The translations under genes and the position numbers were made by a program. From Tenacibaculum jejuense (GTDB lineage Bacteria > Bacteroidota > Bacteroidia > Flavobacteriales > Flavobacteriaceae): 64,000 bases of DNA. The notes below the pieces were generated by a model. The model had not been told where the DNA came from and did not search any database. It worked only from the letters and a program-made list of their open reading frames with translations. Location: assembly GCF_900198195.1 (NCBI RefSeq), contig NZ_LT899436.1:1281501-1345500 (forward strand). The letters run 5' to 3'. Every line of letters starts with the position of its first letter. Position 1 is the first letter of the stretch. This document shows, in pieces, positions 26,195-38,013 of the stretch.

Positions 26195-26422
26195 CTAAAG
26201 TCTAGTAGGCTCGTCAGGAACTTCAATTTCATAACAACTACCAGATCCACAATGCGGACTATTCCATGTTCCTGTAGCGTAATCACATACACAATTATTA
26301 ACAGGGTTTGATCCTGTTGATGTTCCTCCTGTTAAATCAAAAAATGAATGGTTGCCTCCACTAATTTTCTTTTGATCACTTTTATTTAATGTTTTTCCAA
26401 AACTTAAAATTGATTTTTTCAT
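26195..26422 (-). CDS. Double-glycine-leader cysteine-rich precursor peptide 1
   Basis: The 75-residue peptide has a 23-residue leader, MKKSILSFGK...ISGG, ending in Gly-Gly, as in class II bacteriocin-type precursors cut by C39 peptidase exporters. The 52-residue core begins NHSFFDLTGG and holds four Cys (NNCVCDY and PHCGSGSCYE) and an acidic tail. It is expected to be secreted and disulfide-bonded; whether it is an antimicrobial or a signal is unknown. The leader family is shared by six more genes here. Upstream lie the leader-RNA element at 26451-26485 and the promoter-like box at 26580-26606. Confidence 0.82.
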   Translation of the reverse strand: MKKSILSFGKTLNKSDQKKISGGNHSFFDLTGGTSTGSNPVNNCVCDYATGTWNSPHCGSGSCYEIEVPDEPTRL

Positions 26423-26450
26423 AATTTTTGTGTGATTTAAATATTTAAAA

Positions 26451-26485
26451 CCCTAGGTTATTTAAAGACATCTAAGGAACATGTC
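26451..26485 (-). promoter_or_regulatory. 5'-leader pseudoknot element, copy 1 (divergent)
   Basis: In RNA orientation: stem 1 GACAT/ATGTC (5 bp) and stem 2 CCTTAG/CTAGGG (6 bp, one G-U) interleave as stem1-stem2-stem1'-stem2'. Loop 1 is 3 nt and loop 3 is 10 nt, A/U-rich. It ends 28 nt before the start codon. Stem 2 differs from the other copies at two positions (GA/TC to AG/CT) but stays paired. Confidence 0.65.
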
Positions 26486-26579
26486 TGTTGTTTTAAAAAT
26501 TATAATAGGTTTTATTTTCTTAAGCAATTTGTTAATTATGATTTCTTTTATCAGATATAAATATGTCTGTCTTTTTTAA

Positions 26580-26606
26580 TACGTTCTTGAAACTCATAAA
26601 ATGTTA
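26580..26606 (-). promoter_or_regulatory. Candidate ECF-type promoter of peptide 1
   Basis: On the minus strand TAACA-N16-AACGTA, within the block TTAACATTTTAT...GAACGTATTA shared with peptide genes 2 and 3. It lies about 160 nt before the start codon, so the leader RNA would include the pseudoknot element. Confidence 0.5.
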
Positions 26607-26679
26607 ATCTTAATTTCAAAAAAGTTACCAGTCAAATAGAAACCAACGACAATTTTTAATTTACTTAAGAGAATCAACA

Positions 26680-26714
26680 AAAGACTATCTGGAATTGGTT
26701 TCCAGATAGTCTTT
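26680..26714 (-). terminator. Terminator of peptide gene 2
   Basis: A perfect 14-bp stem aaagactatctgga/tccagatagtcttt, with a short loop, lies 7 bp after the stop of the peptide 2 gene. Confidence 0.88.
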
Positions 26715-26720
26715 ATTTTA

Positions 26721-26858
26721 CTAAACGACTCTTACTCTTTCATCATCATCACATTCAGGCAGGCTATTGTCTACTAAACATATAGGCATACCACCTGTAA
26801 TATTTCTTTGTTGTTTTTTTTCTAATGGTTTTCCAAAGTCTAAAATTGATTTTTTCAT
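26721..26858 (-). CDS. Double-glycine-leader precursor peptide 2
   Basis: The ATG at 26858 gives 45 residues: a 23-residue leader (MKKSILDFGK...NITGG) and a 22-residue core with two Cys (MPICLVDNSLPECDDDERVR), the shortest core of the set. An in-frame ATG at 26906 is ignored because it would run through the conserved leader-RNA element and hide the leader. The gene has its own leader element (26887-26920), promoter-like box (27069-27095) and terminator, so it is an independent unit. Confidence 0.8.
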   Translation of the reverse strand: MKKSILDFGKPLEKKQQRNITGGMPICLVDNSLPECDDDERVRVV

Positions 26859-26886
26859 AATTTTTGTATGATTTAAATAATTAAAT

Positions 26887-26920
26887 CCTTGAGCATTTAG
26901 AGACATTCAAGGTGTATGTC
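26887..26920 (-). promoter_or_regulatory. 5'-leader pseudoknot element, copy 2
   Basis: Stem 1 GACAT/ATGTC and stem 2 CCTTGA/TCAAGG interleave with a 3-nt loop 1 and a 9-nt loop 3. It ends 28 nt before the ATG. A TCGCGA palindrome flanked by A/T runs lies just upstream at 26927-26932. Confidence 0.7.
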
Positions 26921-27068
26921 TATTTTTCGCGAAAAAAGTATTGTTAGTGTAAGAGTGATTTTATTAAACAATTTTTTTGATACTATTTCTAGTTAATTAG
27001 CAGTTTTAGTTTTTATTTATTTTTTCTTTAATCTTTTAAATAGTTAGGTTAATTCTACTTTTTATTAA

Positions 27069-27095
27069 TACGTTCCTAGGATAAATAAAATGTTA
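27069..27095 (-). promoter_or_regulatory. Candidate ECF-type promoter of peptide 2
   Basis: On the minus strand TAACA-N16-AACGTA, nearly identical to the box before peptide 1 in position and sequence, about 210 nt before the start codon. Confidence 0.5.
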
Positions 27096-27153
27096 ATCTA
27101 TTTTTCGAAAAAATAAAATAGCGAAGTATGCAATAAGCTTTTATCTACTAGTA

Positions 27154-27434
27154 AAAACAAACAAAGGAGAAACTAATGTTTCCCCTTTTGTTTTGTAAAA
27201 AAGATTTCTTTTTCATGACTAACTTTTTTACACCTCCCTTTCATAACTTTTTCCCGTCGCAATTTCCCCGTTAAGACGTTTCTTAGCAATTTATTTTCTT
27301 TTTCTAGCAATTATTGTCAAACCTAATAAACGAAAATATAAAGAGAAATAACTTTTGAAATTTCTTATTACACTTATACGTTCTCGATTTAGATGATTGT
27401 TACCCTCTTTTTTTGAAAAATAAGAAAATAATAG
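27154..27434 (-). repeat. CHAT 3'-end/terminator repeat, copy 1 (degenerate)
   Basis: About 280 bp similar to the 3' end of the CHAT gene plus its downstream region (28441-28690). In minus orientation it holds a decayed CHAT C-terminus, the conserved hairpin gtaaaaaag/cttttttac (27195-27203 with 27223-27231), and a final aaaggagaaac hairpin terminator near 27163-27187. It fills most of the gene-free stretch 26859-27583; nothing else coding was found there on the minus strand. Confidence 0.65.
27342..27434 (-). pseudogene. Vestigial C-terminus of a CHAT protein, remnant 1
   Basis: The translated frame contains SKKEGN then RERISV, aligning with KKEGN...EHKGV of the intact CHAT tail at the same spacing. 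No upstream coding sequence survives. Homology is judged by eye. Confidence 0.5.
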
Positions 27435-27526
27435 AATGAAAGTTCAGATTTAATCAAAGGGAAACTAGTTATGTTTTTGATTTTTAGTGTTTTATTTGCG
27501 GGTTGGTTAGTTGGAGATTTTATGCA

Positions 27527-27554
27527 AAAAACCCAGTAATAATACTGGGTTTAA
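27527..27554 (-). terminator. Terminator of peptide gene 3
   Basis: A perfect 10-bp stem aaacccagta/tactgggttt with a 4-nt loop and a run of six T on the minus strand, 30 bp after the stop of peptide gene 3. Confidence 0.9.
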
Positions 27555-27583
27555 AATTTTAATAAGTTGAAAGCATGAAAATC

Positions 27584-27730
27584 TTATTCTTCACAATAGC
27601 AACGTATAATTAACCAATTTGGTTGTTCTCTACATTCTAATTCTGTACAACGTCTTAGGCTTCCTCCATTAACTTTTTGTTGTTCTGTTTTTTTTAGTTC
27701 TTTTCCTAAGTTTAAGATTGAATTTTTCAT
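27584..27730 (-). CDS. Double-glycine-leader precursor peptide 3 (48 codons)
   Basis: This short gene encodes a 23-residue leader (MKNSILNLGK...KVNGG) and a 25-residue core, SLRRCTELEC then ...RCYCEE, with four Cys. The leader matches the other six precursors except for Asn at position 3. It has its own leader element (27760-27794), promoter-like box (27930-27956) and a strong terminator. It is too short for common gene-calling cut-offs. Confidence 0.8.
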   Translation of the reverse strand: MKNSILNLGKELKKTEQQKVNGGSLRRCTELECREQPNWLIIRCYCEE

Positions 27731-27759
27731 TTTAGTTTTTGTGATTTAAATGATTAAAT

Positions 27760-27794
27760 CCTTGATCATTTTAAAGACATTCAAGGTATATGTC
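27760..27794 (-). promoter_or_regulatory. 5'-leader pseudoknot element, copy 3
   Basis: Stem 1 GACAT/ATGTC and stem 2 CCTTGA/TCAAGG interleave with a 3-nt loop 1 (ATA) and a 10-nt loop 3 (TTTAAAATGA). It ends 29 nt before the ATG; TCGCGA lies upstream at 27800-27805. Confidence 0.7.
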
Positions 27795-27929
27795 TATTTT
27801 CGCGAAAAAATATTATTGAGTAATTAAATTAAATAGCAATTTATCAGTGATAATTATTCCAAAACCGAAATAGAATAATAGAATCATAATGTGTGTTTTA
27901 TTATTTTATGATAGTTATAGTTGTATTAG

Positions 27930-27956
27930 AGTGTTCCTGAAATAAGTGAAATGTTA
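27930..27956 (-). promoter_or_regulatory. Candidate ECF-type promoter of peptide 3
   Basis: On the minus strand TAACA-N16-AACACT; the upstream half (TTAACATTT) is conserved with the other peptide promoters, the downstream half is weaker. Confidence 0.4.
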
Positions 27957-28061
27957 ACTACTTTTCATTAAAAATATAGAAAGAATATCGTATTTTTTTG
28001 ATGTAGTTTGATATACAAAAGCTTAGGAAGAATAATCTTTTAATGAAGGAATAAAAATTTA

Positions 28062-28348
28062 TAAAAACAAACAAAGGAGAAACTAACGTTTCCCCTTTTG
28101 TTTTGTAAAAAAGATTTTTTTTTCAGTACTAGCTTTTTTACGTTTTCTTTTCCATAACTTTTTTACAGTGTAATTTCCGCGAATAACATTTCACAACAAT
28201 TTATTTTCCTTTTCTAGCAATTTTACTTAATCAAACAAAAATGTATATGTTATGAGAAATAACTCTTAAAAATTAGTTACTTACACCTTTATGTTCTTTA
28301 GTGTGCAAAACGTTACCCATTTTTTTTGAAATTATTTTTTAATAATGG
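28062..28348 (-). repeat. CHAT 3'-end/terminator repeat, copy 2 (degenerate)
   Basis: About 285 bp in the same layout as copy 1: decayed CHAT C-terminus, the gtaaaaaag/cttttttac hairpin (28105-28113 with 28133-28141) and an aaaggagaaac/gtttccccttt terminator at 28072-28098. It fills most of the gene-free region 27731-28600. Confidence 0.65.
28252..28348 (-). pseudogene. Vestigial C-terminus of a CHAT protein, remnant 2
   Basis: The frame reads SKKMGN, five residues, then EHKGVSN and a stop. This matches KKEGN-x5-EHKGVNN of the intact CHAT tail, so it is a relic of a third CHAT copy. Confidence 0.6.
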
Positions 28349-28440
28349 AATTACACTAATTACGTGTTAATCTTAAATAGTCATATCTCTCTTTCTGTTG
28401 TTTGATTATTACCATTATTTCAAAGAAATTATTTATATAT

Positions 28441-28690
28441 AAACAAGCAAAGGAGAAACATTAGTTTCTCCTTTGTGTTTTGTAAAAAGATTTCTTTTTC
28501 AATACTAACCTTTTTACGTTCTTCTTTTCATAACAATTTTGCTTCTTTTTCAAGCAAAAAATGATTAAACCTAACAAATATGAATTATGAGAAATAACTC
28601 TCAAAATTTGTTATTTACACCCTTATGTTCATCTTGTTTAGATTTGTTACCCTCTTTTTTTAAAAAAATAAAAAAGAATAAAAATAGTGT
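28441..28690 (-). repeat. CHAT 3'-end/terminator repeat, copy 3 (attached to the intact gene)
   Basis: This is the presumed parent form: the last ~30 codons of CHAT protein 1, then the hairpin gtaaaaag/ctttttac (28482-28489 with 28510-28517; one pair shorter on both arms than in copies 1 and 2), then the terminator aaaggagaaac/gtttctccttt at 28450-28473. Confidence 0.65.
28450..28473 (-). terminator. Terminator of the CHAT 1 unit
   Basis: A perfect 11-bp stem aaaggagaaac/gtttctccttt with a short loop, followed on the minus strand by a T-rich run; about 130 bp after the CHAT stop. Confidence 0.8.
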
Positions 28691-31363
28691 TGAAATTGCT
28701 ATGATATAGTGTATTGTATAGTTTGATTCAAAAGTAGGATTAGTGTCACCAATTAAAATAAAAGAGGCCCAATAATAAGGTGATTTTTGAGAAAGAGAAT
28801 GATTTTTTAAATACTTTCTTTTTGCATTATTTAAAGCTTCCGATTTTGATTGATGATCTTTTAAGTTAGTGTAAAAATCAGTCATTAATTCTGTAGTTGC
28901 TACGTCATTTACTTTCCATAAAGATGATACCACAGATTTAGAACCAGAATAAAAGAACCCACGAGCTAAGTTTAAGATTCCTTCTCCTCTTTTTAGTTCT
29001 CCAACATTGGTTTCACAAGCACTTAAAACCACTAAATCTGCATTATTTTTATAAGTATATAATTCATGTAGATTAAGAGAATCTTTACTAAAATGAATTA
29101 CAGGTTTTCTTGAAACATTAGCATGTGTAGCCAAGTGAATAATTTTAGCATTTGAAGCATTAGTTAAAAAACTGTCTTTAGTTACATTTTCACCTGTTAA
29201 AGTTATTCCGTTTAAATTGTTATTTATTGAATTAATTTCTTCAGCGGAATGTTGTAGTGTAGTTAATTTTTTATTTTCAAATTCGACAGGAGCAAAGCCC
29301 GCAAATTCTTTTTCAGAAGTTCTAGAGATATTATTATTCACATTTAAAAACGACATAGAATATGCATAACTGATATCAGTATTTTCTATTAAAAATCTAT
29401 TTGAAGTCGTGTCAGTAACAAAAGCTTCAAAAGGAATGTTTTGAAGATTATCATCAGGAATAATAACAACTTTTTTATTTTGAATTAAATCTTTGATTTC
29501 ATCAGTAGGAAATAAGCTATTATATAGAGAATTTGCTACGGTATTGTATTGTTTAATTTCGTTTTTATTGTTTAAAGGTTTTGCAATAAATTTTGTAAAA
29601 GTTTGTATTTCATTTTTTATTGTGTAGCTATTTAAAGTGAAGGGGAGAATATTATTTTTACTGATACATAAACCAATAGATGTATCTATGAAGTTTTCTT
29701 CATTATTATTTTGAATAGAATAAGAAACAACTACAGTATCATCATCTAAATTTTGTTGAACTTCCTGAAGAGAAATTAAATCTGTTTTACTTTTTAATTG
29801 AAAATACTTAGGAAAAACAGTTCGAATAGAATCTTTAAATTGCTGATAAGAAAATCTAAAATCAAATAAAGAATCTTTTACAGTTTTAGTTTCTTTATTG
29901 GTAATTTTATACTCTAAATCTAATATCTTTTTTTTATATTGTTTATCCTTGTCTAAAATAGCTTTTGGAAGCTCTCTATTTATATTGTCGTTATCTATAT
30001 TTTGTGCTAATAAAAAGGCTTTGTTTTTTTCTAAATACCTGAAGCTAGATTTATAATCTTTTTTTAAGTAATAAATATAAGCTGCGTAATTATAAATTTC
30101 TGAAGCATCTTTTCTCCATCGAAATTGAGATTCTGAATTAGTATCATTGTCTAAAATAACTGAAATTAAGTTGTCAAAGTTTTGGATACTAACAATAGCG
30201 TCATCTATATATTTTTCTTTTAGTTTTGATGACTTTTCAATTAAAGCTATTAATGCTTTTAAATTGAACTTATAGGTAATTAAGGAACTATTTTTTCTAT
30301 TATTATTTTGATGTAAAACTTCTGGATATATTTCACTGAACTTCTTGTTGTTTGAGGTATAGAAAAAGTCAAAAGCTAAGTATGAGTTTTTTAAGGCTTT
30401 TAAGTAATTTTTCTTCTTGTAAAAAAACTCACTTAAGTTTAAATAAGCATTAGCTTTGATTAATTCAAGGCCATCAATTTGATTACAATAATTAAGGCTT
30501 TTATTTAAAAAATAAAATGCACTATCTTTTTGATGAGTTAAATAATGTTGACCTTGGTTTCTGATAATTGAGGTAATTAGATTGTTATTGTTAATTTTTT
30601 TAGCTTCTTTAAGGGCTTTTTTATAATAAAAATTAGCTTTATCAAAGCTTTCCATTATTTTTTGAGAGTGTGCATTAGCTAAATTTAGATTAATTCTAGT
30701 AGCTAATTTTTGATTTTTCAAACTATTCCTATATCTCTTTAATAAAGCATCAGAAAACTTTAAAAAATTAATCGTGTTTTTTAAATGATTTTTGTCTTCA
30801 GTAAAGTATGAGTTTTTCGCAATATCTAAAGAATATGTTATTATACTGGTTGGTTTTCCGTGTATCTTTAAGATGTTAATTCCCTTGTGATAATAGTTAA
30901 AAGATTTATTGTAATCCCCTCTTAAAAAAAAACATTTGCCTAATAAACATAAAGCTTGTCCTTTTCTCTTTTTACTATAGCTTGCTTTTGAAGCAATAAC
31001 TAAGAATCTTTCAGCTTTTAATAAATCATTTTTTCTTAAATATAGATAACCCAATTGTAATATTAGATGTTGGTAATATGAATTTTTTTTTTGATTATCT
31101 AATATTTTTATTTCCTGTTTTAAGTATTTTATAGCTATATTAATTTTTTTCTTTTTGTAAAAAAATCTAAAAAAAATAGAATAAATTTTTGCTTTTTCTT
31201 CTTCGTTAATTACAGTATCGAGAATACTATCAGCTTTCTTTTCATTAAAATTTACAATTTCGTCTAATTTAATATCCTTAAATAAAGATTGCCCTTCAAT
31301 CTTAATAGAAAAAAGAGCAATAAATATTATCAGAATTGGAACTTTAAAATTAATAGGTTCCAT
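28601..31363 (-). CDS. TPR-CHAT caspase-like protease 1, periplasmic and membrane-anchored
   Basis: The 920-residue protein has an N-terminal signal or anchor (PILIIFIALFSIKIEG), TPR-like helical repeats over about 60-450, and a C-terminal CHAT domain (about 600-870). The CHAT catalytic dyad is intact: H747 in IIHLATHAN and C783 in VLSACETNVG. A last hydrophobic helix (HYIIAISTLFLFFFIFL) precedes a charged tail. Two membrane segments imply that TPRs and protease face the periplasm. CHAT domains are cysteine proteases of the caspase-separase clan, usually triggered through fused sensor repeats. The gene follows a small lipoprotein gene by 26 bp. The CHAT part is almost identical to that of protein 2, while the TPR parts diverge. 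Confidence 0.9.
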   Translation of the reverse strand: MEPINFKVPILIIFIALFSIKIEGQSLFKDIKLDEIVNFNEKKADSILDTVINEEEKAKIYSIFFRFFYKKKKINIAIKYLKQEIKILDNQKKNSYYQHLILQLGYLYLRKNDLLKAERFLVIASKASYSKKRKGQALCLLGKCFFLRGDYNKSFNYYHKGINILKIHGKPTSIITYSLDIAKNSYFTEDKNHLKNTINFLKFSDALLKRYRNSLKNQKLATRINLNLANAHSQKIMESFDKANFYYKKALKEAKKINNNNLITSIIRNQGQHYLTHQKDSAFYFLNKSLNYCNQIDGLELIKANAYLNLSEFFYKKKNYLKALKNSYLAFDFFYTSNNKKFSEIYPEVLHQNNNRKNSSLITYKFNLKALIALIEKSSKLKEKYIDDAIVSIQNFDNLISVILDNDTNSESQFRWRKDASEIYNYAAYIYYLKKDYKSSFRYLEKNKAFLLAQNIDNDNINRELPKAILDKDKQYKKKILDLEYKITNKETKTVKDSLFDFRFSYQQFKDSIRTVFPKYFQLKSKTDLISLQEVQQNLDDDTVVVSYSIQNNNEENFIDTSIGLCISKNNILPFTLNSYTIKNEIQTFTKFIAKPLNNKNEIKQYNTVANSLYNSLFPTDEIKDLIQNKKVVIIPDDNLQNIPFEAFVTDTTSNRFLIENTDISYAYSMSFLNVNNNISRTSEKEFAGFAPVEFENKKLTTLQHSAEEINSINNNLNGITLTGENVTKDSFLTNASNAKIIHLATHANVSRKPVIHFSKDSLNLHELYTYKNNADLVVLSACETNVGELKRGEGILNLARGFFYSGSKSVVSSLWKVNDVATTELMTDFYTNLKDHQSKSEALNNAKRKYLKNHSLSQKSPYYWASFILIGDTNPTFESNYTIHYIIAISTLFLFFFIFLKKEGNKSKQDEHKGVNNKF

Positions 31364-31389
31364 AAATTATTTTTGTATTTTGTTTTATG

Positions 31390-31893
31390 TTAATCCTTTA
31401 AAATAATTCTTGTAGATAAAATACCATTACATATTCCTTTAGTTTGACTATGAAAATCTTCTATAATTGAAGACTTTTTAAGAATTAAGTCTTCATCTTC
31501 ATCTTCATCTTCATCATCAACAGGGTCACCATGTTCTCCACGAATAAGCCATACTTCACAGTTGCCATTGATTGAAACTCTACTTATAGTATTAAAAGGG
31601 AAAATGTAACAATTTATAGCTTCTTGTTTTTGAGAAATACTTAAACCTTCTATGAAACAAAACTCTCTCTGATAATTAAAATCAAGAAAGTTATCATCAT
31701 TTTCTTGGTTGTCATCGTCACTACTCAAATCATTCTTTACAATTATTCCATCTTCCGTAAAAGCATTTCCTCTACCCATCAACTCGAGTTCTGGTTCAAT
31801 AACTTCGTCTAAATTTTCATTATCACTACAGCTAAAAGCAAATATTAAAATAGAAAATACTACAGCTAATTTTAAATAATTAAATAATTTCAT
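31390..31893 (-). CDS. Acidic lipoprotein paired with CHAT protein 1
   Basis: The 167-residue protein has a lipobox (ILIFAFSCSDNEN) and two acidic stretches, SSDDDNQENDD and an alternating Asp-Glu run at 31489-31516 on the DNA (repeat unit gatgaa). Four Cys lie in the mature part (EFCFIEG, INCYIF, GNCEVW, KGICNG). It is the first gene of a two-gene unit with the CHAT gene and has the conserved promoter region upstream. As a cell-envelope partner it may be the ligand or substrate of the CHAT protein; that is inference. Confidence 0.8.
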   Translation of the reverse strand: MKLFNYLKLAVVFSILIFAFSCSDNENLDEVIEPELELMGRGNAFTEDGIIVKNDLSSDDDNQENDDNFLDFNYQREFCFIEGLSISQKQEAINCYIFPFNTISRVSINGNCEVWLIRGEHGDPVDDEDEDEDEDLILKKSSIIEDFHSQTKGICNGILSTRIILKD

Positions 31894-31918
31894 TGTGTTT
31901 TATTTTTATATACATCTT

Positions 31919-31948
31919 CTATGTTTTTTAAACTTAAAAATGTTACCC
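31919..31948 (-). promoter_or_regulatory. Candidate ECF promoter of the lipoprotein-CHAT 1 unit
   Basis: On the minus strand GGGTAACA-N15-AACATAG, ending 26 nt before the ATG. A -7-like TACTTTTG lies further upstream. The whole block (gcaaaagtataaaatttta on the plus strand, then tgttaccc) is duplicated at 35185-35212. Confidence 0.6.
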
Positions 31949-31966
31949 GAGCAAAAGTATAAAATT

Positions 31967-34705
31967 TTATTTTCTCTTGTTAATTAGTTTGTTATAAGAA
32001 AAAAAGAAGAGAAACACGATAAATATTCCACCCAAAATCCAATATATTAAAGAGTTGCTTTCAAAAGTAGGATTAGTATCACCAATTAAGATAAAAGAAG
32101 CCCAGTAATAGGGAGATTTTTCAGATAGTGAATGATTTTTTAAATATTTTCTTTTTGCGTTATTTAAAGCTTCCGATTTTGATTGATGATCTTTTAAGTT
32201 AGTGTAAAAATCAGTCATCAATTCTGTAGTTGCCACGTCATTTACTTTCCACAAAGATGATACTACAGATTTAGAACCAGAATAAAAGAATCCGCGGGCT
32301 AAGTTTAAGATTCCCTCTCCTTTTTTTAGTTCTCCAACATTGGTTTCACAAGCACTTAAAACCACTAAATCTGCATTATTTTTATAAGTATATAATTCAT
32401 GAAGATTTAAAGAGTCTTTGCTAAAATGAATTACAGGTTTTCTAGAAATATCAGCATGTGTAGCCAAATGAATGATTTTAGCATCTGAAGCATTAGTTAA
32501 AAAACTGTCTTTAGTTACATTTTCACCTGTTAAAGTTATTCCGTTTAAATTGTTATTTATTGAATAAATCTCTTCAGCGGAATGTTGTAGTGTAGCTAAT
32601 TTTTCATTTTCAAATTCGACAGGAGCAAAACCAGCAAAGTCTTTTTCAGGAGTTCTGGAGATTTTATTATTCACATTTAAAAACGACATAGAATACGCAT
32701 AACTGATATCAGTATTTTCTATCAGGTATTTGTTAGAAGTAGTATCTGTAATAAATGCTTCAAAAGGAATATTTTGAAGATTATCATCTGGAATAATAAC
32801 AACTTTTTTATTTTGAATTAAATCTTTGATTTCATCAGTAGGAAATAAGCTGTTATATAAAGAATTAGCGGCAGTGTTGTATTGCTTAATTTTGTTTTTA
32901 TTACTCAAAGGTCTAGCTAGCAGTTGACGATAGATGTTTAAATCTGTTTTCAATTTTTCGATGTTTGAAATTGAAAAAGGGATAGATTTATTTTTTGAAA
33001 TCAACAAACCAGTAGAAGCGTTAAAAGTTGTTGTTTCATCATGTAAAGCATAAGAAATAACAATAGTATTGTTGTCTATTTGTTGTTTTACATCTTGTAA
33101 AGAAGTTAGTTCAACTTTTTTCTTACTTTCAAAATGTTCAGGATAAATTTTTTGTATAGAATCTTTAAAGCTTTGATAAGCAAATTTGATATCAAATAAG
33201 GAATCTTTTAATTTTTTAGAATCAGAAGTTAAAGTTTGATCCTCTAATTGTAATATCTGTTTTTTATACCCTAACTCTTCATCAACAATATGATTTGGTA
33301 AGTTTAAAGAATAGTTATTGTCATTTATACTTTGGGTGAGCAAAAAAGCTTTGTTTTTCTCTAGATACTGAAATTGTAGATTTTCGCTACCTAATAATCT
33401 AGCTGCGTAAATTCCATACTTATAAATTTTAGAAATATTGTTACGCCAAGAAAATTGAGTACTAGATTCTGTACTATCTTCCAAAATGATTTCTACTAGT
33501 TGATCACTAATATTTACTGTTTCAATAATTTGATTTAAATATTTAGAATCATCAGTTTTTAAATACAATTGATTTAAAATTTGGATCTTAGTGTTTAATG
33601 CTTTGGAAATATTTAATCTCTCACTAGTCTTATGTAATTGAAATTTAGTAGGACTCATATCTTCTATTTCTAAATTGAAACTAGTTTTCAAAGAAATATT
33701 TATACTTTTTAAAGCTTTTTTTAAGTTTTTTTTCCAGAAGTAGTAATTAGCAATATTTCGATGACTTTCAGCTTTTAAGAGATTATAATTTTGATGTTTC
33801 TTATTTGTGTTTTTTATTAAGCTTTTATTTAAATAATATATTGAACTATCGCTTTTGATTTTAAGTAGTAACTCTCCATAATTCATACTAGCTAGAGAGA
33901 GGAAAAAATATTTGTTTTCTTGTTTTGAAAGTCTTAAGCATTTAAGGTAGTGGTATTTAGATTTTTTTATATCAAATGTTTCTTTTTTGCTATATAGGTT
34001 ACCTAATGAGTTATTAATATTAAAAACATCTAAAAAAAAATTTGGATATGATTTGTTTTTTATAATCGAATCTACTTTGAATAGATAGTTAATTGCATCT
34101 TGTATATCTGATATATTATTACTAAAATTAGCAGTTAAAGCTAGATTGATGGAGTGTGCAACTATACTCTTTTTATTATTTAACTTTTTTAAAGAACTAA
34201 TACCTTTCTTATAATAATTTATTGATTTTTTTATATCACCTTTAGCTCTATAACAACTTCCTAGCATACATAGTGACTGAGCAGCTTTTTTAGGATAAAT
34301 ATCTAATCTAGCAGATTTTTTTAATATTTCTATAGCTTTTAAAAATTGATTGTTATCATGATAGTAACAGCCTACTAGATGTAAAGCTATATGGTATTTT
34401 TTATCTTTTAAATTCAATTTATCAAAATACGTTAATTCAATATTCCCATATTTCAAGGCTGACTTATTATCTCCATATATCCTGAAGAATCTAGAAAAAT
34501 TATGGTATAGCTCCTTCTTACTTTCTAAACTATTTAGCTTGTTAGCTAAAGAATCTATCAATTGACTATTGATTTCTATTTTAGAACTAAGTTTTTCAAT
34601 ATCTTTAATAGACAAAACTTTTTGAGAAAAACAATAGTTAAATGTAAATAAAGTAAATAGGATGATTATTACTTTATTAGTTAATAAATTTACATATAAA
34701 ATCAT
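31967..34705 (-). CDS. TPR-CHAT caspase-like protease 2, periplasmic and membrane-anchored
   Basis: The 912-residue paralogue of protein 1 has an N-terminal signal segment (LTNKVIIILFTLFTFNYCFS), TPR-like repeats (for example KAAQSLCMLGSCYRAKGDIK) and a C-terminal CHAT domain with H750 in IIHLATHAD and C786 in VLSACETNVG. It ends in a hydrophobic helix (LIYWILGGIFIVFLFFF) and a basic tail. The region from about residue 610 to 885 differs from protein 1 at only a few positions, whereas the TPR region shares only scattered residues. It follows a small exported-protein gene by 27 bp and stops just before the second unit's promoter. Confidence 0.9.
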   Translation of the reverse strand: MILYVNLLTNKVIIILFTLFTFNYCFSQKVLSIKDIEKLSSKIEINSQLIDSLANKLNSLESKKELYHNFSRFFRIYGDNKSALKYGNIELTYFDKLNLKDKKYHIALHLVGCYYHDNNQFLKAIEILKKSARLDIYPKKAAQSLCMLGSCYRAKGDIKKSINYYKKGISSLKKLNNKKSIVAHSINLALTANFSNNISDIQDAINYLFKVDSIIKNKSYPNFFLDVFNINNSLGNLYSKKETFDIKKSKYHYLKCLRLSKQENKYFFLSLASMNYGELLLKIKSDSSIYYLNKSLIKNTNKKHQNYNLLKAESHRNIANYYFWKKNLKKALKSINISLKTSFNLEIEDMSPTKFQLHKTSERLNISKALNTKIQILNQLYLKTDDSKYLNQIIETVNISDQLVEIILEDSTESSTQFSWRNNISKIYKYGIYAARLLGSENLQFQYLEKNKAFLLTQSINDNNYSLNLPNHIVDEELGYKKQILQLEDQTLTSDSKKLKDSLFDIKFAYQSFKDSIQKIYPEHFESKKKVELTSLQDVKQQIDNNTIVISYALHDETTTFNASTGLLISKNKSIPFSISNIEKLKTDLNIYRQLLARPLSNKNKIKQYNTAANSLYNSLFPTDEIKDLIQNKKVVIIPDDNLQNIPFEAFITDTTSNKYLIENTDISYAYSMSFLNVNNKISRTPEKDFAGFAPVEFENEKLATLQHSAEEIYSINNNLNGITLTGENVTKDSFLTNASDAKIIHLATHADISRKPVIHFSKDSLNLHELYTYKNNADLVVLSACETNVGELKKGEGILNLARGFFYSGSKSVVSSLWKVNDVATTELMTDFYTNLKDHQSKSEALNNAKRKYLKNHSLSEKSPYYWASFILIGDTNPTFESNSLIYWILGGIFIVFLFFFSYNKLINKRK

Positions 34706-34732
34706 CCCAATTAATTTTAATCATTAGTGTTT

Positions 34733-35131
34733 TTAATTGAATGTGCTTAGTGAAGGAGGTCCAGAAAATATATTTGTATTTGTGTATGGACTCAGAAAAT
34801 AGGGGTAAAAACAAGGGAAATCTGCCTCTTCTGTATCATTAGATGTAACACCTGTTGTGTTTTGTAAACGAAATTTTACTTTCCAAGTTTCACCTATTGT
34901 ATTTGGTTTATAAATTAAATTTATAAAAACATATCTTTCACTAAGACATTTTCTGATTTCTTCGGAGCTATCATTTGAATTAGGAAATATATGCATAATA
35001 TAATATTCTGTTTGATTTAAACTTTTAAATCTTTGAGTAATACTTTTGTCTATGCTTCCTCCAGCAAAACTAAAACAAACAAGTACTAATAGTCCTAAAA
35101 TTGTTGGATTAACTAATTGAAATAATTTCAT
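34733..35131 (-). CDS. Small exported protein paired with CHAT protein 2
   Basis: The 132-residue protein starts MKLFQLVNPTILGLLVLVCFSFAGG, a signal peptide like that of the 167-residue lipoprotein but without a lipobox. The mature part holds two Cys (RKCLSE and FPCFYP) and WKVKFRLQNTTGVTSND. It occupies the same position before its CHAT gene as the lipoprotein does, and the promoters are near copies, so the two units arose by tandem duplication even though the small proteins have diverged. No known domain is recognised. Confidence 0.75.
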   Translation of the reverse strand: MKLFQLVNPTILGLLVLVCFSFAGGSIDKSITQRFKSLNQTEYYIMHIFPNSNDSSEEIRKCLSERYVFINLIYKPNTIGETWKVKFRLQNTTGVTSNDTEEADFPCFYPYFLSPYTNTNIFSGPPSLSTFN

Positions 35132-35163
35132 AATATTTTGTTTTTATATATATTCGTTGTCCC

Positions 35164-35192
35164 CTAGTTTATAAAACTTTAAAATGTTACCC
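35164..35192 (-). promoter_or_regulatory. Candidate ECF promoter of the exported-protein-CHAT 2 unit
   Basis: On the minus strand GGGTAACA-N15-AACTAG, ending 32 nt before the ATG, a normal promoter-to-start distance. It lies in the 105-bp gap that also holds the promoter for the divergent sigma-factor gene (-7-like TATTTTTG at 35212-35219). Confidence 0.6.
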
Positions 35193-35236
35193 TCGCAAAA
35201 GTATAAAATTTTATTTTTGTGTATCAGATAGAAAAA

Positions 35237-35797
35237 ATGGATAGTAGTTTATATTTAAATGCGCTAGTTGAAGGAAATTCAAGAATCATCTCAAAAATTT
35301 ACAGTACTAATTTTTCTCAAGTAAAAAGATTTATACTTCAAAATAAAGGTGGAGTAGTAGATGCAGAAGATGTTTTTCAAAAAGCGTTATTACAAATCGC
35401 AGTTCGTCATAAAAAGGAAGGTATAGCAATTAAAAGTAGTTTTGATGCTTATTTATTCACAGTATGTAAGAATTTATGGAGAAGAGAATTAAATAGTAAA
35501 AAAAATAGGGTAACAAATCAGGAGGTTATTGAACTGGTTAGTGAAGCTAAAGAAAATGCAAATGCTTTAGTAGAACAAAAAAGACACGAATTGTTCTTAG
35601 AAAAGCTAAATATGGTTTCAGATAATTGTAAAAAAATACTATCACTTTTCTTTGCCAAAGTACCATATGCTGAGATTGTAGAAAGTACTGAGTACAATTC
35701 TGAAACTGTTGTAAGACAGCGAGTGTTTAAGTGTAAAAAGAAATTAACCGACTTAATTAGGGGAGATAAAAGATATCTTTCGTTACAAGAATTATGA
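35237..35797 (+). CDS. ECF-type RNA polymerase sigma factor
   Basis: The ATG at 35237 gives 186 residues. Region 2 (VVDAEDVFQKALLQIAVRH...FDAYLFTVCKNLWRREL) binds the -10 element and core polymerase; region 4 (DNCKKILSLFFAKVPYAEIVESTEYNSETVVRQRVFKCKKKL) reads the -35 element. A GTG at 35219 in frame would add six residues but falls on a -7-like box. The gene overlaps the downstream anti-sigma-like gene by 4 bp (ATGA). It faces away from two CHAT units that share a GGGTAACA promoter block, the likely target of this sigma factor. Confidence 0.92.
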   Translation: MDSSLYLNALVEGNSRIISKIYSTNFSQVKRFILQNKGGVVDAEDVFQKALLQIAVRHKKEGIAIKSSFDAYLFTVCKNLWRRELNSKKNRVTNQEVIELVSEAKENANALVEQKRHELFLEKLNMVSDNCKKILSLFFAKVPYAEIVESTEYNSETVVRQRVFKCKKKLTDLIRGDKRYLSLQEL

Positions 35798-36579
35798 ATT
35801 TAGAAGACGACATATTAATTGAACGTTTTTTAAGAAATGAATTGACTGATGAAGAACAGTCAGATTTCTTAAAACGTTTAGAAGATGATTCTGATTTTAA
35901 AGAAAACTATCATCTAGAAAAACAGTTATTCGAATCTTTAAACGACGACAGTTGGAGTTTTGTTGAAAACACAGATGATATCGAAGTCAAAGAATACGAA
36001 CAGTTGTATAATAGTCCAGAAGTAATAGCAATTAAAGAAGCAATTAAAGATGCCTCTAGAGTAAAAACAAAAAGTAAAAACAGAAAAGTTATTGCATTTA
36101 TTTCAGGTTTTGCAGCGGCAATTGTATTGGTACTAGCTTCTAATATTTTCTTAAAGGAAACTGTAGATGCACAGGTTTTATATGCAGATAATATTCAATT
36201 AGAAAAATTACCATCTTTTGTTACTAGAAGTCAAACAACTGATGTAAAACTCGTCGATGCAGAAAAACTATTCAAAGCTAAAAGATATGAAGATGCATTG
36301 GCTATTTTTTCTATCGAATTGGAAGAAAATAAAAATAGTAACATATTTATTTATAAAGCACTTTCTGAAGTTGAATTGAATAAGTTTGATAACGCCAAGC
36401 GAACTTTGAAAACACTAACTAATAGTGATTTCATTGATGCAGAAAAAGGATATTGGTATTTAGGTCTTTTGTATTTAAAATCTAACAATAAAAAAGAAGC
36501 TAAGGAAGTATTTAAAAAAATAGTAAAGGAAAAACTGTTTAATAAAGATAAAGCAGAAAAAATTTTAGATAAAATATAA
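35794..36579 (+). CDS. TPR-containing anti-sigma-like membrane protein
   Basis: The 261-residue protein has a cytoplasmic N-terminal part of about 95 residues (DDILIERFLRNELTDEEQSDF, as in Bacteroidota anti-sigma partners, without a zinc site), one membrane helix (VIAFISGFAAAIVLVLASNIF, about 97-118) and a periplasmic TPR region (KLFKAKRYEDALAIFSIELE...YWYLGLLYLKSNNKKEAKE). The 4-bp overlap with the sigma-factor gene supports a sigma/anti-sigma pair. Its periplasmic TPRs parallel the sensor repeats of the CHAT proteins, so both may read an envelope peptide or protein state. A bidirectional terminator follows. Confidence 0.82.
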   Translation: MNLEDDILIERFLRNELTDEEQSDFLKRLEDDSDFKENYHLEKQLFESLNDDSWSFVENTDDIEVKEYEQLYNSPEVIAIKEAIKDASRVKTKSKNRKVIAFISGFAAAIVLVLASNIFLKETVDAQVLYADNIQLEKLPSFVTRSQTTDVKLVDAEKLFKAKRYEDALAIFSIELEENKNSNIFIYKALSEVELNKFDNAKRTLKTLTNSDFIDAEKGYWYLGLLYLKSNNKKEAKEVFKKIVKEKLFNKDKAEKILDKI

Positions 36580-36608
36580 GAAAAGGAGAGTTTAAAACTC
36601 TCCTTTTC
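36580..36608. terminator. Bidirectional terminator between the sigma operon and the peptide 4-6 operon
   Basis: A 12-14-bp stem gaaaaggagagttt/aaactctccttttc with an almost empty loop lies one base after the anti-sigma stop and before the end of the convergent peptide 4 gene. Confidence 0.9.
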
Positions 36609-36655
36609 TAATACCTGTATAGTTTAAATTGTAAACTACAATCTAAAAAATAATT

Positions 36656-36874
36656 CTATTGTGGAAATATACCAAAGCACTTCAATGGTGTTGCACTCAT
36701 ATCACATGGGAAATTTGTGATAACATATCGAACACCAATAAGGCTAGTAGGATCTGGAACTTCTTCACATTCGCATCCTATTAATTGTGGAACAGCCGAA
36801 TTAATACCTCCAACAATTTCTTGTTGTTTTGTTTTATTTAAAACTTTACCTAGATTTAAAATTGATTTTTTCAT
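36656..36874 (-). CDS. Double-glycine-leader precursor peptide 4
   Basis: The 72-residue precursor has a 23-residue leader (MKKSILNLGK...EIVGG) and a 49-residue core starting INSAVPQLIGCECEE, with four Cys. It is the last gene of a three-peptide run (peptides 6, 5 and 4 in transcription order) and has no leader element of its own; it starts 30 bp after the stop of peptide gene 5, so it is read from the same transcript. Confidence 0.82.
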   Translation of the reverse strand: MKKSILNLGKVLNKTKQQEIVGGINSAVPQLIGCECEEVPDPTSLIGVRYVITNFPCDMSATPLKCFGIFPQ

Positions 36875-36904
36875 GATTTATACTTTAAGATTATTTGAGT
36901 GTTT

Positions 36905-37078
36905 TTAAAAAGTACCTCCATGGGCTAAATAACATGTTTCTTCACATTCGAAGACATCATCACCAGTGTGTCTTTCCGCACAACTGTCTAAACATCTTCC
37001 TAAATAATATCCACCTTTAATTTGTTTTTGTGCCGTTTTATTTAAAGTAAGTCCTAAGTTTAAAATTGATTTTTTCAT
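36905..37078 (-). CDS. Double-glycine-leader precursor peptide 5 (57 codons)
   Basis: This short gene encodes a 23-residue leader (MKKSILNLGL...QIKGG) and a 34-residue core, YYLGRCLDSCAERH...CEETCYLAHGG, with two CxxxC pairs spaced like a helical hairpin stapled by two disulfides. It is preceded at 37113-37138 by a hairpin rather than the pseudoknot element, so it is probably an internal gene of the peptide 6-5-4 operon. It is too short for usual cut-offs. Confidence 0.8.
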   Translation of the reverse strand: MKKSILNLGLTLNKTAQKQIKGGYYLGRCLDSCAERHTGDDVFECEETCYLAHGGTF

Positions 37079-37112
37079 TTTTTTGAATAATAAGTTTTAG
37101 ATAAAATTTATT

Positions 37113-37138
37113 CAATAAGGGTATTTACTAATACCCTT
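37113..37138 (-). promoter_or_regulatory. Intra-operon hairpin between peptides 6 and 5
   Basis: A perfect 11-bp inverted repeat ataagggtatt/aataccctta (plus closing pair) around a 4-nt loop with no long T-run. It could be a weak attenuator that sets the ratio of the peptides. Confidence 0.65.
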
Positions 37139-37153
37139 ATCTTTAGAAGTCAT

Positions 37154-37315
37154 TTAAAAAAGACAGTTTCCTTGAAAACAGAAAGCTGGACATCTTGGTA
37201 ATATAACACCAGGAGGGTTATAGCCACCTGGACAAAAATAACGAGTACCACCGTTTACATTTTTTTGCTCTACTTTGTTTAAAGCTTTACCTAGATTTAA
37301 AATTGATTTTTTCAT
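37154..37315 (-). CDS. Double-glycine-leader precursor peptide 6 (53 codons)
   Basis: The precursor has a 23-residue leader (MKKSILNLGK...NVNGG) and a 30-residue core, TRYFCPGGYNPPG...FCFQGNCLF, with four Cys and Gly/Pro-rich turns. It heads the three-peptide operon and has the pseudoknot leader element 24 nt upstream (37340-37373). It is too short for usual cut-offs. Confidence 0.8.
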   Translation of the reverse strand: MKKSILNLGKALNKVEQKNVNGGTRYFCPGGYNPPGVILPRCPAFCFQGNCLF

Positions 37316-37339
37316 AATTAAGATTTAAAAATTATTAAT

Positions 37340-37373
37340 CCTTGAACATTTATAGACACTCAAGGTTTGTGTC
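37340..37373 (-). promoter_or_regulatory. 5'-leader pseudoknot element, copy 4
   Basis: Stem 1 GACAC/GTGTC and stem 2 CCTTGA/TCAAGG interleave with a 3-nt loop 1 (AAA) and a 9-nt loop 3 (TATAAATGT). Stem 1 has a C-G pair where copies 1-3 have T-A, a compensatory change. TCGCGA lies upstream at 37379-37384. Confidence 0.7.
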
Positions 37374-37501
37374 TTTCTTCGCGAAAAATGTTTTATAATA
37401 TTTTAGGATTAATGTAATTTAAAAACACCTTACTTCACATGTATATTAAGAAACACTCTAGTAATAAAAACTATTAGTTTTATATTATTTCCATTAATAG
37501 T

Positions 37502-37552
37502 TAAGCTAAACGTCATATAAAACTTGATATGTATCAAGTATACGTTTGGCTT
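37502..37552. repeat. Long imperfect hairpin downstream of peptide gene 7
   Basis: Outer arms taagctaaacgt/acgtttggctta (one G-U in RNA) and an inner perfect acttgata/tatcaagt. There is no T-run, so it is not a classic terminator; it may be a 3' stabiliser or processing site of the peptide 7 transcript. Confidence 0.75.
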
Positions 37553-37622
37553 AGAATTTTGTTTGTACAAAGACTAAAGAAAATATCTAATTAATTACAT
37601 AGTTTCTATAATATATAGAATA

Positions 37623-37823
37623 TTAAAAAGGGCAAGTTGTAAATACTTGGTTTTGGCAGTGTACAGGTAAGTTTTTATAATCTTCACAAGGAGCACATTG
37701 AGGCGATCCGAAACTTGTTATTCCGTAACAAATAGGGTAAGAAGCACAAGTATTACCACCGTTAATAGATTTTTGTTGGTTTTTATTTAAAGTTTTACCT
37801 AGATTTAAGATTGATTTTTTCAT
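37623..37823 (-). CDS. Double-glycine-leader precursor peptide 7
   Basis: The 66-residue precursor has a 23-residue leader (MKKSILNLGK...SINGG) and a 43-residue core, NTCASYPICYGITSFG...CPF, with six Cys. It is the most upstream of the set on the minus strand and is a single-gene unit with its own pseudoknot leader element (37852-37885). A short stem ttctata/tatagaa follows the stop. Confidence 0.82.
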   Translation of the reverse strand: MKKSILNLGKTLNKNQQKSINGGNTCASYPICYGITSFGSPQCAPCEDYKNLPVHCQNQVFTTCPF

Positions 37824-37851
37824 AATAATTAAGATTTAAAAATGATTAAAT

Positions 37852-37885
37852 CCTTGAACATTTATAGACACTCAAGGTTTGTGTC
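37852..37885 (-). promoter_or_regulatory. 5'-leader pseudoknot element, copy 5
   Basis: Identical in both stems to copy 4 (GACAC/GTGTC and CCTTGA/TCAAGG; loop 1 AAA; loop 3 TATAAATGT). It ends 28 nt before the ATG, with TCGCGA at 37891-37896. Confidence 0.7.
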
Positions 37886-38013
37886 TTTCTTCGCGAAAAA
37901 TATTATAGAAGATATTCGTTAAGACTATCTTGTTTAGTATAAAATGATATTAAATAAAAAGATTGCATAGCAAGTACAATTTTTTACTTTTTCATATAAA
38001 GTAAATATAACAA

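Follow-up and report, generated by a model that had tools for sequence, protein, structure and literature searches.

In a 64,000-nucleotide stretch of the Tenacibaculum jejuense genome (contig NZ_LT899436.1, positions 1,281,501 to 1,345,500; hereafter the window, in which all plain coordinates below are counted), five genes for short peptides with a double-glycine (GG) leader are each preceded by a copy of one sequence element, whose interleaved complementary segments support its reading as an H-type pseudoknot in the transcript. The element belongs to a family of structured RNAs with strong covariation and, in the searches made, no match in Rfam 15, which occurs in about one in seven of the Flavobacteriaceae genomes sampled (54/397). 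Among the explanations considered, we slightly favor that of a transcribed, cis-acting leader RNA, which would define a regulon of exported GG-leader peptides and would be read by a shared trans-acting factor. This reading predicts a trans factor common to all copies. The element may mark a shared control system for small, probably exported, peptides in flavobacteria, and it offers a handle on how small peptides are controlled where initiation does not depend on Shine-Dalgarno signals.

Pairing and covariation of the element

A preliminary description of the element, made from the sequence of the window, proposed a 5-bp stem 1 interleaved with a 6-bp stem 2, a 3-nt loop 1, no spacer between the stems and a loop 3 of 9-10 nt. 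The interleaving, loop 1, stem 2 and the lack of a spacer stand, but stem 1 comprises 6 bp, with a flanking A-U pair that covaries with G-C (AU in 225, GC in 26 and other combinations in 18 of 269 copies), and because of this additional pair loop 3 shrinks to 8-9 nt. These 269 copies derive from 409 aligned model matches, which were reduced to 275 by removing duplicates and 7 unparsable sequences, and further by dropping 6 low-scoring or chance matches; the 9 weakest of the 159 matches of one search had been left out of the alignment. Loop 1 is 3 nt long in 233 of the 269 copies and begins with A in 231 of those 233, while loop 3 has 8-9 nt (9-10 if counted beside a 5-bp stem 1) in 256. In the 214 copies with a nine-base loop 3, two A residues occupy fixed places (in 213 and 214 copies, respectively) and a G is present in 199. 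The element thus has the interleaved helices (6+6 bp, no spacer) and the groove-spanning loop lengths by which H-type pseudoknots are recognized. Copy 1 of the window (minus strand, as all five) may serve as an example: the 5' strand of stem 1 (26481-26485) is followed by loop 1 (26478-26480), the 5' strand of stem 2 (26472-26477), the 3' strand of stem 1 (26467-26471), loop 3 (26457-26466) and the 3' strand of stem 2 (26451-26456). As had been claimed, its core (26451-26485) is a compensated variant with CCTTAG/CTAGGG in stem 2, in which two adjacent pairs are changed and one pair is G·U.

Covariation in further copies, which had been set beforehand as a test, is found in both stems across genera. 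Stem 1 (GACA/UGUC) and the loop bases are nearly fixed and stem 2 drifts. A sequence-only model without base pairs (R1), the seeds of which come mostly from a pattern fixing GACA/TGTC and CCTT/AAGG, found distant copies with rewritten stems in which pairing is kept: their stem 2 is wholly different yet complementary (CTTCAA/TTGAAG, CTATGA/TCATAG, ATGTGA/TCACAT, TCAAGA/TCTTGA) and their stem 1 is partly different (GACAG/CTGTC, GACCG/CGGTC). Further rewrites of stem 1, GACTG/CAGTC and GTCAT/ATGAC, were found by the covariance model R2, which, like our parser, favors pairs. In a MAFFT alignment of 32 copies, hand-picked for diversity and including 10 (copy 1 and nine distant loci) that the pattern had not found, 97.9% of the 384 cells are paired, both sides change at 9 of the 12 pairs, and 39 cells carry double changes versus 5.9 in shuffles; none of five measures was reached by 500 shuffles, and sliding the partners by 1-3 columns lowered the paired fraction to 16.6-52.3%.

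Two further counts rest mainly on model matches in whole genomes. When the alignment was fitted to stem 2 only (125 distinct rows), stem 1 was paired in 96.6% of cells, with 50 double changes versus 5.1; stem 2 in its own fitted alignment, which leans toward the structure, was paired in 97.1%, with 178 versus 48.5. The R1 matches (121 distinct rows) gave 98.4% and 37 versus 10.6, a count that is partly circular, as many rows come from pattern-found loci; such copies test pairing only at the free letters (Y/R and NN/NN), and the later model matches provide a test as well. In all these counts the cells represent sequences and not events, and related copies are not independent.

The last pair of stem 1 is informative about the strand, as the scan pattern left C/T in the 5' strand and A/G opposite free. 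In the 269 parsed copies this pair is C/G 126 times, T/G 85, T/A 31, C/A 2 and other 25 times. Among the matches listed, the 127 with an AT-rich loop show C/G 61, T/G 34, T/A 30 and C/A 2, both C/A cases (L045, L092) being loci outside Bacteroidota, and the 31 other matches show C/G 7, T/G 6, T/A 8 and C/A 10. The large excess of T/G over C/A therefore points to a folded transcript of one strand, since a symmetric DNA site could not tell the two apart. Over all 12 pairs of 236 distinct cores there are 169 wobbles versus 26 mirror mismatches, with a parser that favors wobbles. Folded single-stranded DNA could also show a T/G bias; the near-fixed distance to the start codon (see below) speaks against it. 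The same consideration applies to a single-stranded DNA recombination site, for instance a folding attachment site of gene cassettes, which would explain tandem small genes, several of them with a folded element of their own, and would likewise tolerate G·T pairs; with the association to one gene class over many genera and the positions directly after exporter genes also to be accounted for, we find this explanation barely credible.

Copies, host range and target genes

The five window copies lie where the preliminary description had placed them, all on the minus strand and 24-29 nt before the start codon, and all but copy 1 have the TCGCGA palindrome upstream. Copy 1 (26451..26509, the core plus a 5' block to 26509 without TCGCGA; 45.2 bits with R2) precedes the gene of a 75-residue GG-leader peptide (26195..26422). 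Copy 2 (26887..26944, core 26887-26920, TCGCGA block to 26944; 73.6 bits) precedes the gene of a 45-residue GG-leader peptide (26721..26858), which, as proposed, starts with the ATG at 26858, and for which the list of open reading frames (ORFs) also has a longer in-frame version from 26906. Copies 3 (27760..27818, core 27760-27794, TCGCGA block to 27818; 67.7 bits), 4 (37340..37397, core 37340-37373, block to 37397; 72.9 bits) and 5 (37852..37909, core 37852-37885, block to 37909; 70.1 bits) are followed by genes of GG-leader peptides of 48 (27584..27730), 53 (37154..37315) and 66 residues (37623..37823), respectively. A relaxed pattern, GACAYNNNCCTTNNRTGTCN{8,12}YYAAGG, exactly matches four of the five copies and nothing in 100 dinucleotide shuffles. 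Two additional minus-strand GG-leader genes, located 3' of the gene of copy 4 (36905-37078 and 36656-36874), have no R2 match before them. Four of the window's seven GG-leader peptides have no family match in Pfam and NCBIfam searched at E up to 1, so that the element can flag small peptide genes missed by family models; the cut-off of 22 for the class I lanthipeptide leader (NF038153) was reached by none of the seven, the best scoring 14.0 bits.

These five are indeed real copies, but they are part of a larger set. A covariance search of the whole T. jejuense genome (4.6 Mb) revealed 16 clear copies at E <= 3.5e-6, and the gap to the next match (E 0.27) sets the family clearly apart from noise. 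One weak match (E 0.9), located before a GG-leader match, may be a degenerate 17th copy and was left uncounted. A looser pattern gave 8 exact matches in the same genome versus none for the reversed control. By position, 15 of the 16 copies directly precede GG-leader peptide matches. The remaining, intact-looking copy (L216, 15643-15708, minus strand) lies, judged by eye, before an apparent decayed peptide start, with a C39 exporter gene further on. Positions had suggested that this copy heads the exporter gene itself, which we rejected, as about 200 nt and the apparent decayed peptide start lie between them. In a cluster of this genome with copies of the element, the neighbors are HlyD_3 and Peptidase_C39/ABC proteins and a VKOR-thioredoxin protein; the genome has 3 C39 matches. 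An ORF resembling a PAS/LuxR-type regulator (L216, 17611-18360; by eye) adjoins the exporter and peptide cluster.

A first pattern scan of 149 Flavobacteriaceae genomes gave a match in 7, versus 2 for the reversed control. In the search for further copies with the covariance model, as suggested in the preliminary description, the 54 genomes matched by R2 represent 46 of 237 genera of the family. Outside the family the element is rare. In a class-level search R2 matched 8 of 395 genomes, and only G1049, both copies of which precede GG-leader peptides, is not a member of Flavobacteriaceae. In an order-level search R1 matched 17 of 395 genomes. Outside the family this search gave one good match, which precedes a secreted-like protein in G220 (E 3.9e-8), and five weak matches from genomes of 0.3-1.4 Mb, which with E 0.001-0.005 probably arose by chance. 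In these large searches at most 13 candidates were scored per genome, and per-genome copy numbers are lower bounds. Among the matches listed, those in public contigs include the genera Tenacibaculum, Aquimarina, Winogradskyella, Dokdonia, Algibacter, Psychroserpens, Flagellimonas, Gaetbulibacter, Flavivirga, Snuella and Aquaticitalea, and those from other phyla look like chance.

The association with one class of genes holds over many genera. Of the 269 copies, 240 are followed by a short ORF in which GG or GA occurs among the first 45 residues. Among the remaining 29, near-GG leaders are present in eight, genes of secreted or lipoprotein-like proteins follow three (L133, L184, L212), and for most of the others no clear ORF is visible. 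The secreted or lipoprotein-like targets without a GG leader (L137/L184 in G045, L212 in G218, L133 in G220) possibly indicate a wider regulon. Intercistronic positions are frequent: in 54 of the 245 copies with at least 700 nt available upstream, the stop codon of an upstream ORF on the same strand falls inside the 5' block of the element, and by end motif these ORFs comprise 21 HlyD-like, 15 ABC-like, 6 GG-peptide and 12 other genes. A C39 match is found in 22 of 25 genomes with the element versus 29 of 124 others (Fisher p 1.5e-9; this table of 149 genomes takes those of the C39 search as all within the R2 family search, and the handles agree). The targets thus have the marks of double-glycine-leader exported peptides, a short GG leader and a C39 exporter in the genome, and their export is predicted.

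Several other features of the window lie close to the peptide genes. Two similar tetratricopeptide repeat (TPR) proteins with C-terminal CHAT domains (28601-31363 and 31967-34705, minus strand) adjoin them. Three degenerate direct repeats at 27150-27254 (82%), 28060-28164 (reference) and 28436-28540 (78%), with further repeats around them, represent a duplicated intergenic segment that includes a hairpin-like sequence and lies between peptide genes and the gene of a CHAT protein. On the plus strand, placed between the two groups of peptide genes, a sigma-70 region 2 protein (35219-35797) overlaps a TPR-like protein (35794-36579) by 4 bases, and the two (35219-36579) resemble an extracytoplasmic function (ECF) pair.

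The upstream block, the initiation region and the mode of action

Conservation begins sharply 24 nt before GACA, with an A-rich stretch followed by ATTCT-YTCGCGAR-GAATA and then the pseudoknot. The arms of this 5' block correlate beyond the consensus, with z values (inflated by the relatedness of copies) of 9.2 if G·U is allowed, 7.9 for Watson-Crick pairs only and 5.7 for mirror pairs. Because the arms correlate, and because the middle differs among distant copies in both length and sequence, we read the block as a small hairpin, and the TCGCGA palindrome may, with moderate support, be its loop region rather than a DNA operator. According to the alternative, the overlapping dyads and TCGCGA would form a double-stranded operator or promoter bound by a transcription or sigma factor, and RNA structure would be incidental. 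This would agree with the sharp onset of conservation at -24, with the lack of a promoter consensus further up, and with an arm correlation also in the DNA-palindrome register (z 7.6), but it accommodates neither the preference for G·U over mirror pairs and the variable middle of the block, nor the T/G excess at the informative pair and the free covariation of stem 2, and we hold it to be very improbable. For the pseudoknot part we reject an operator on the last two grounds, and the possibility raised at the outset, that the element acts only as double-stranded DNA, is largely refuted there.

A GC-rich hairpin ends at most 8 nt from the block in 37 of 264 copies, of which 2 have at least 5 T in the next 8 nt; within the 92 nt searched, any such hairpin is present in 70 of 264. 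Some hairpins scored as lacking a U tail, such as those of L084 and L210, end in T within the stem itself, and these could be terminators of the ordinary kind. Others (L169, L172, L178, L012, L135 and more) consist of a GC-rich hairpin at most 8 nt from the block, with an A-run before it and no T-rich stretch after it, i.e. they have the shape of a terminator minus the tail.

On its other side, the element keeps a near-fixed distance to the start codon: the spacing between stem 2 and the ATG is 24-31 nt in 236 of the 269 copies, with a mean offset of 27.4 (sd 1.9) over the 245 copies in which it is 20-36. At these start sites, position -3 is A in 90% and position -12 in 87% of cases, versus 45% and 58% in a baseline of 74 T. 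jejuense ORFs with 200 codons or more (which begin at the first ATG, maybe not the true start), and A at -6 is low, 28% versus 55% in the same baseline. For Flavobacterium johnsoniae, efficient translation is reported to be associated with A at -3, -6 and -12/-13 (Baez et al. 2019, PMC6847099). As the A frequencies match this pattern at -3 and -12, although not at -6, the peptide genes appear to be built for strong initiation, and the element looks like a separate module just upstream of the initiation region. In predictions limited to nested structures, the leader leaves access to the start region unchanged, at 0.495 for the native and 0.507 for the shuffled leader in 120 copies. As these predictions show no sequestration of the start codon, we rejected that mechanism.

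We propose that the peptide messages carry a leader RNA of about 58 nt, composed of an A-rich linker, a probable small hairpin with a loop region most often reading UCGCG, and an H-type pseudoknot. The latter would have a stem 1 of 6 bp, a 3-nt loop 1 starting with A, a 6-bp stem 2 directly after the strand of stem 1, and a loop 3 of 8-9 nt with the fixed AA and usually a G. Ending about 27 nt before the start codon, the leader would lie just outside the initiating 30S subunit and upstream of a strong Kozak-like region. A shared trans-acting factor, for which an RNA-binding protein is a better candidate than a metabolite, would recognize stem 1 and loops 1 and 3, and would govern the translation or stability of the peptide message independently of the exporter genes that often precede the peptide cistron. 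The near-constancy of stem 1 and the loops, beside a drifting stem 2, suggests that a factor reads them, and the 16 copies that stand before different peptides in a single genome suggest that it is shared. The step under control would be translation or stability of the message, given that the spacing is kept relative to the start codon and not to a promoter, and that the module is often found directly after an exporter gene. On balance, the element is probably an undescribed class of cis-regulatory pseudoknots that governs a genome-wide, post-transcriptional regulon of exported (bacteriocin-like or signalling) peptides in Flavobacteriaceae, with a dedicated RNA-binding protein or a new ligand as its reader, in hosts that initiate translation without Shine-Dalgarno pairing.

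Some observations weigh against this proposal. The last pair of stem 1 is G·A in 8 of the 269 copies, and the outer pair of stem 2 is broken as CA in 8, TT in 5, AA in 4 and CT in 4. The hairpin of the 5' block is weak alone (RNAfold mean -1.1 versus -0.8 kcal/mol for shuffled sequences), only 46% of 220 copies fold below their own shuffles, and the palindrome register mentioned above offers a competing description of the same letters. The flavobacterial -7 consensus TAnnTTTG occurs in 14 of 222 non-redundant upstream regions versus 17.5 shuffled, i.e. without enrichment, and we rejected a promoter upstream of the element on this basis; among the 54 copies with an upstream stop codon inside the block, it is present within -124..-10 in 2. 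Part of the 5' block itself could be an unusual promoter, and hairpins, some terminator-like, abut some copies. Finally, 3 of the 25 element genomes lack a C39 match, and of the 55 GG-leader matches in the T. jejuense genome (E up to 1), 15 carry a clear copy and 40 do not, so that the element is not needed for GG-leader peptides generally.

Known aptamers include compact H-type pseudoknots in which loop bases are fixed (preQ1-I, SAM-II), and near-invariant loops beside a drifting stem 2 would also be expected if the pseudoknot bound a small molecule and in the bound state altered how the peptide message is translated or decays. A precedent for riboswitch candidates upstream of small ORFs is RF01704 (PMC2864571). 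However, no expression platform is seen, as the element ends 24-31 nt before AUG and predicted start access is unchanged, the 3-nt loop 1 and the lack of an inter-stem spacer would leave little room for a pocket, and no metabolic enzyme is found among the listed targets of the 269 copies. We therefore regard a riboswitch as unlikely, although it deserves to be kept in mind.

A comparably small chance is given to a constitutive 5' stabilizer or processing site of the mRNA, where a cut in the A-rich linker would leave the hairpin and the pseudoknot to protect the new 5' end, raising the peptide mRNA over the exporter mRNA with no regulator needed. The conserved A-rich stretch at the 5' edge, the upstream stop codons inside the block, and the abutting GC-rich hairpins, mostly without a T tail, as for paired 3'/5' protectors, would suit such a site, for which the near-fixed GACA/UGUC, the loop bases and the distance to AUG would be needless. 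The hairpins also bring to mind processive antitermination of the put RNA or LoaP type, in which the element would act on RNA polymerase and let it pass terminators between peptide genes; put RNA is a two-hairpin element of similar size. But the element sits after the terminator-shaped hairpins and not before them, most copies have none, and a fixed distance to AUG is unexpected for such a signal, which makes this mechanism most improbable.

Relation to known RNA families and leaders

The claim that no described riboswitch or leader has this form holds as far as Rfam 15 goes. At the gathering score Rfam 15 gave only tRNAs in the window; at E up to 10 nothing matched copies 1-3 in 26300-28000, and at E up to 5 eight distant loci gave 3 weak matches, none of them on the element. 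No description of the element was found in the literature searched, which left subscription journals mostly outside and supplements unread, and the parts available of PMC2864571, PMC6847099, PMC9723704, PMC10734526, PMC11109978 and PMC8040213 do not mention it. A cis-acting structured leader is a known kind of regulator; within Rfam 15 and the literature searched, and to that extent, the family, the regulon and the host range are new.

SAM-II is a class of H-type pseudoknots, and the downstream-peptide motif (RF01704) contains a pseudoknot. SAM-II with long loops (RF01726) is listed for Bacteroidetes in PMC2864571, i.e. for the same phylum, and differs in that our element has no Rfam match and GG-leader peptides as targets. 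The same source presents RF01704 as a riboswitch candidate before short ORFs; it is thus also a leader of small genes, but one of Cyanobacteria and marine sequences whose family does not match the element. Flavo-1 (RF01705) is a computed RNA motif widespread in Flavobacteriaceae, with no fixed strand relative to transcripts, according to PMC9723704. Its Rfam model matched no copy of the element searched.

The preQ1-I riboswitch is an H-type pseudoknot of about 34 nt with an A-rich loop 3, whose sequence and loop lengths differ from those of the element. Stem 2 of the element, moreover, sits 24-31 nt before AUG, and the element has no Rfam match. The translational operator of phage T4 gene 32 is a leader with a short H-type pseudoknot that serves autoregulation of a single gene. 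Compared without sequences, the two are alike in having a short H-type pseudoknot upstream of the start codon and outside the ribosome footprint; in the flavobacteria, however, many copies per genome stand before one class of genes.

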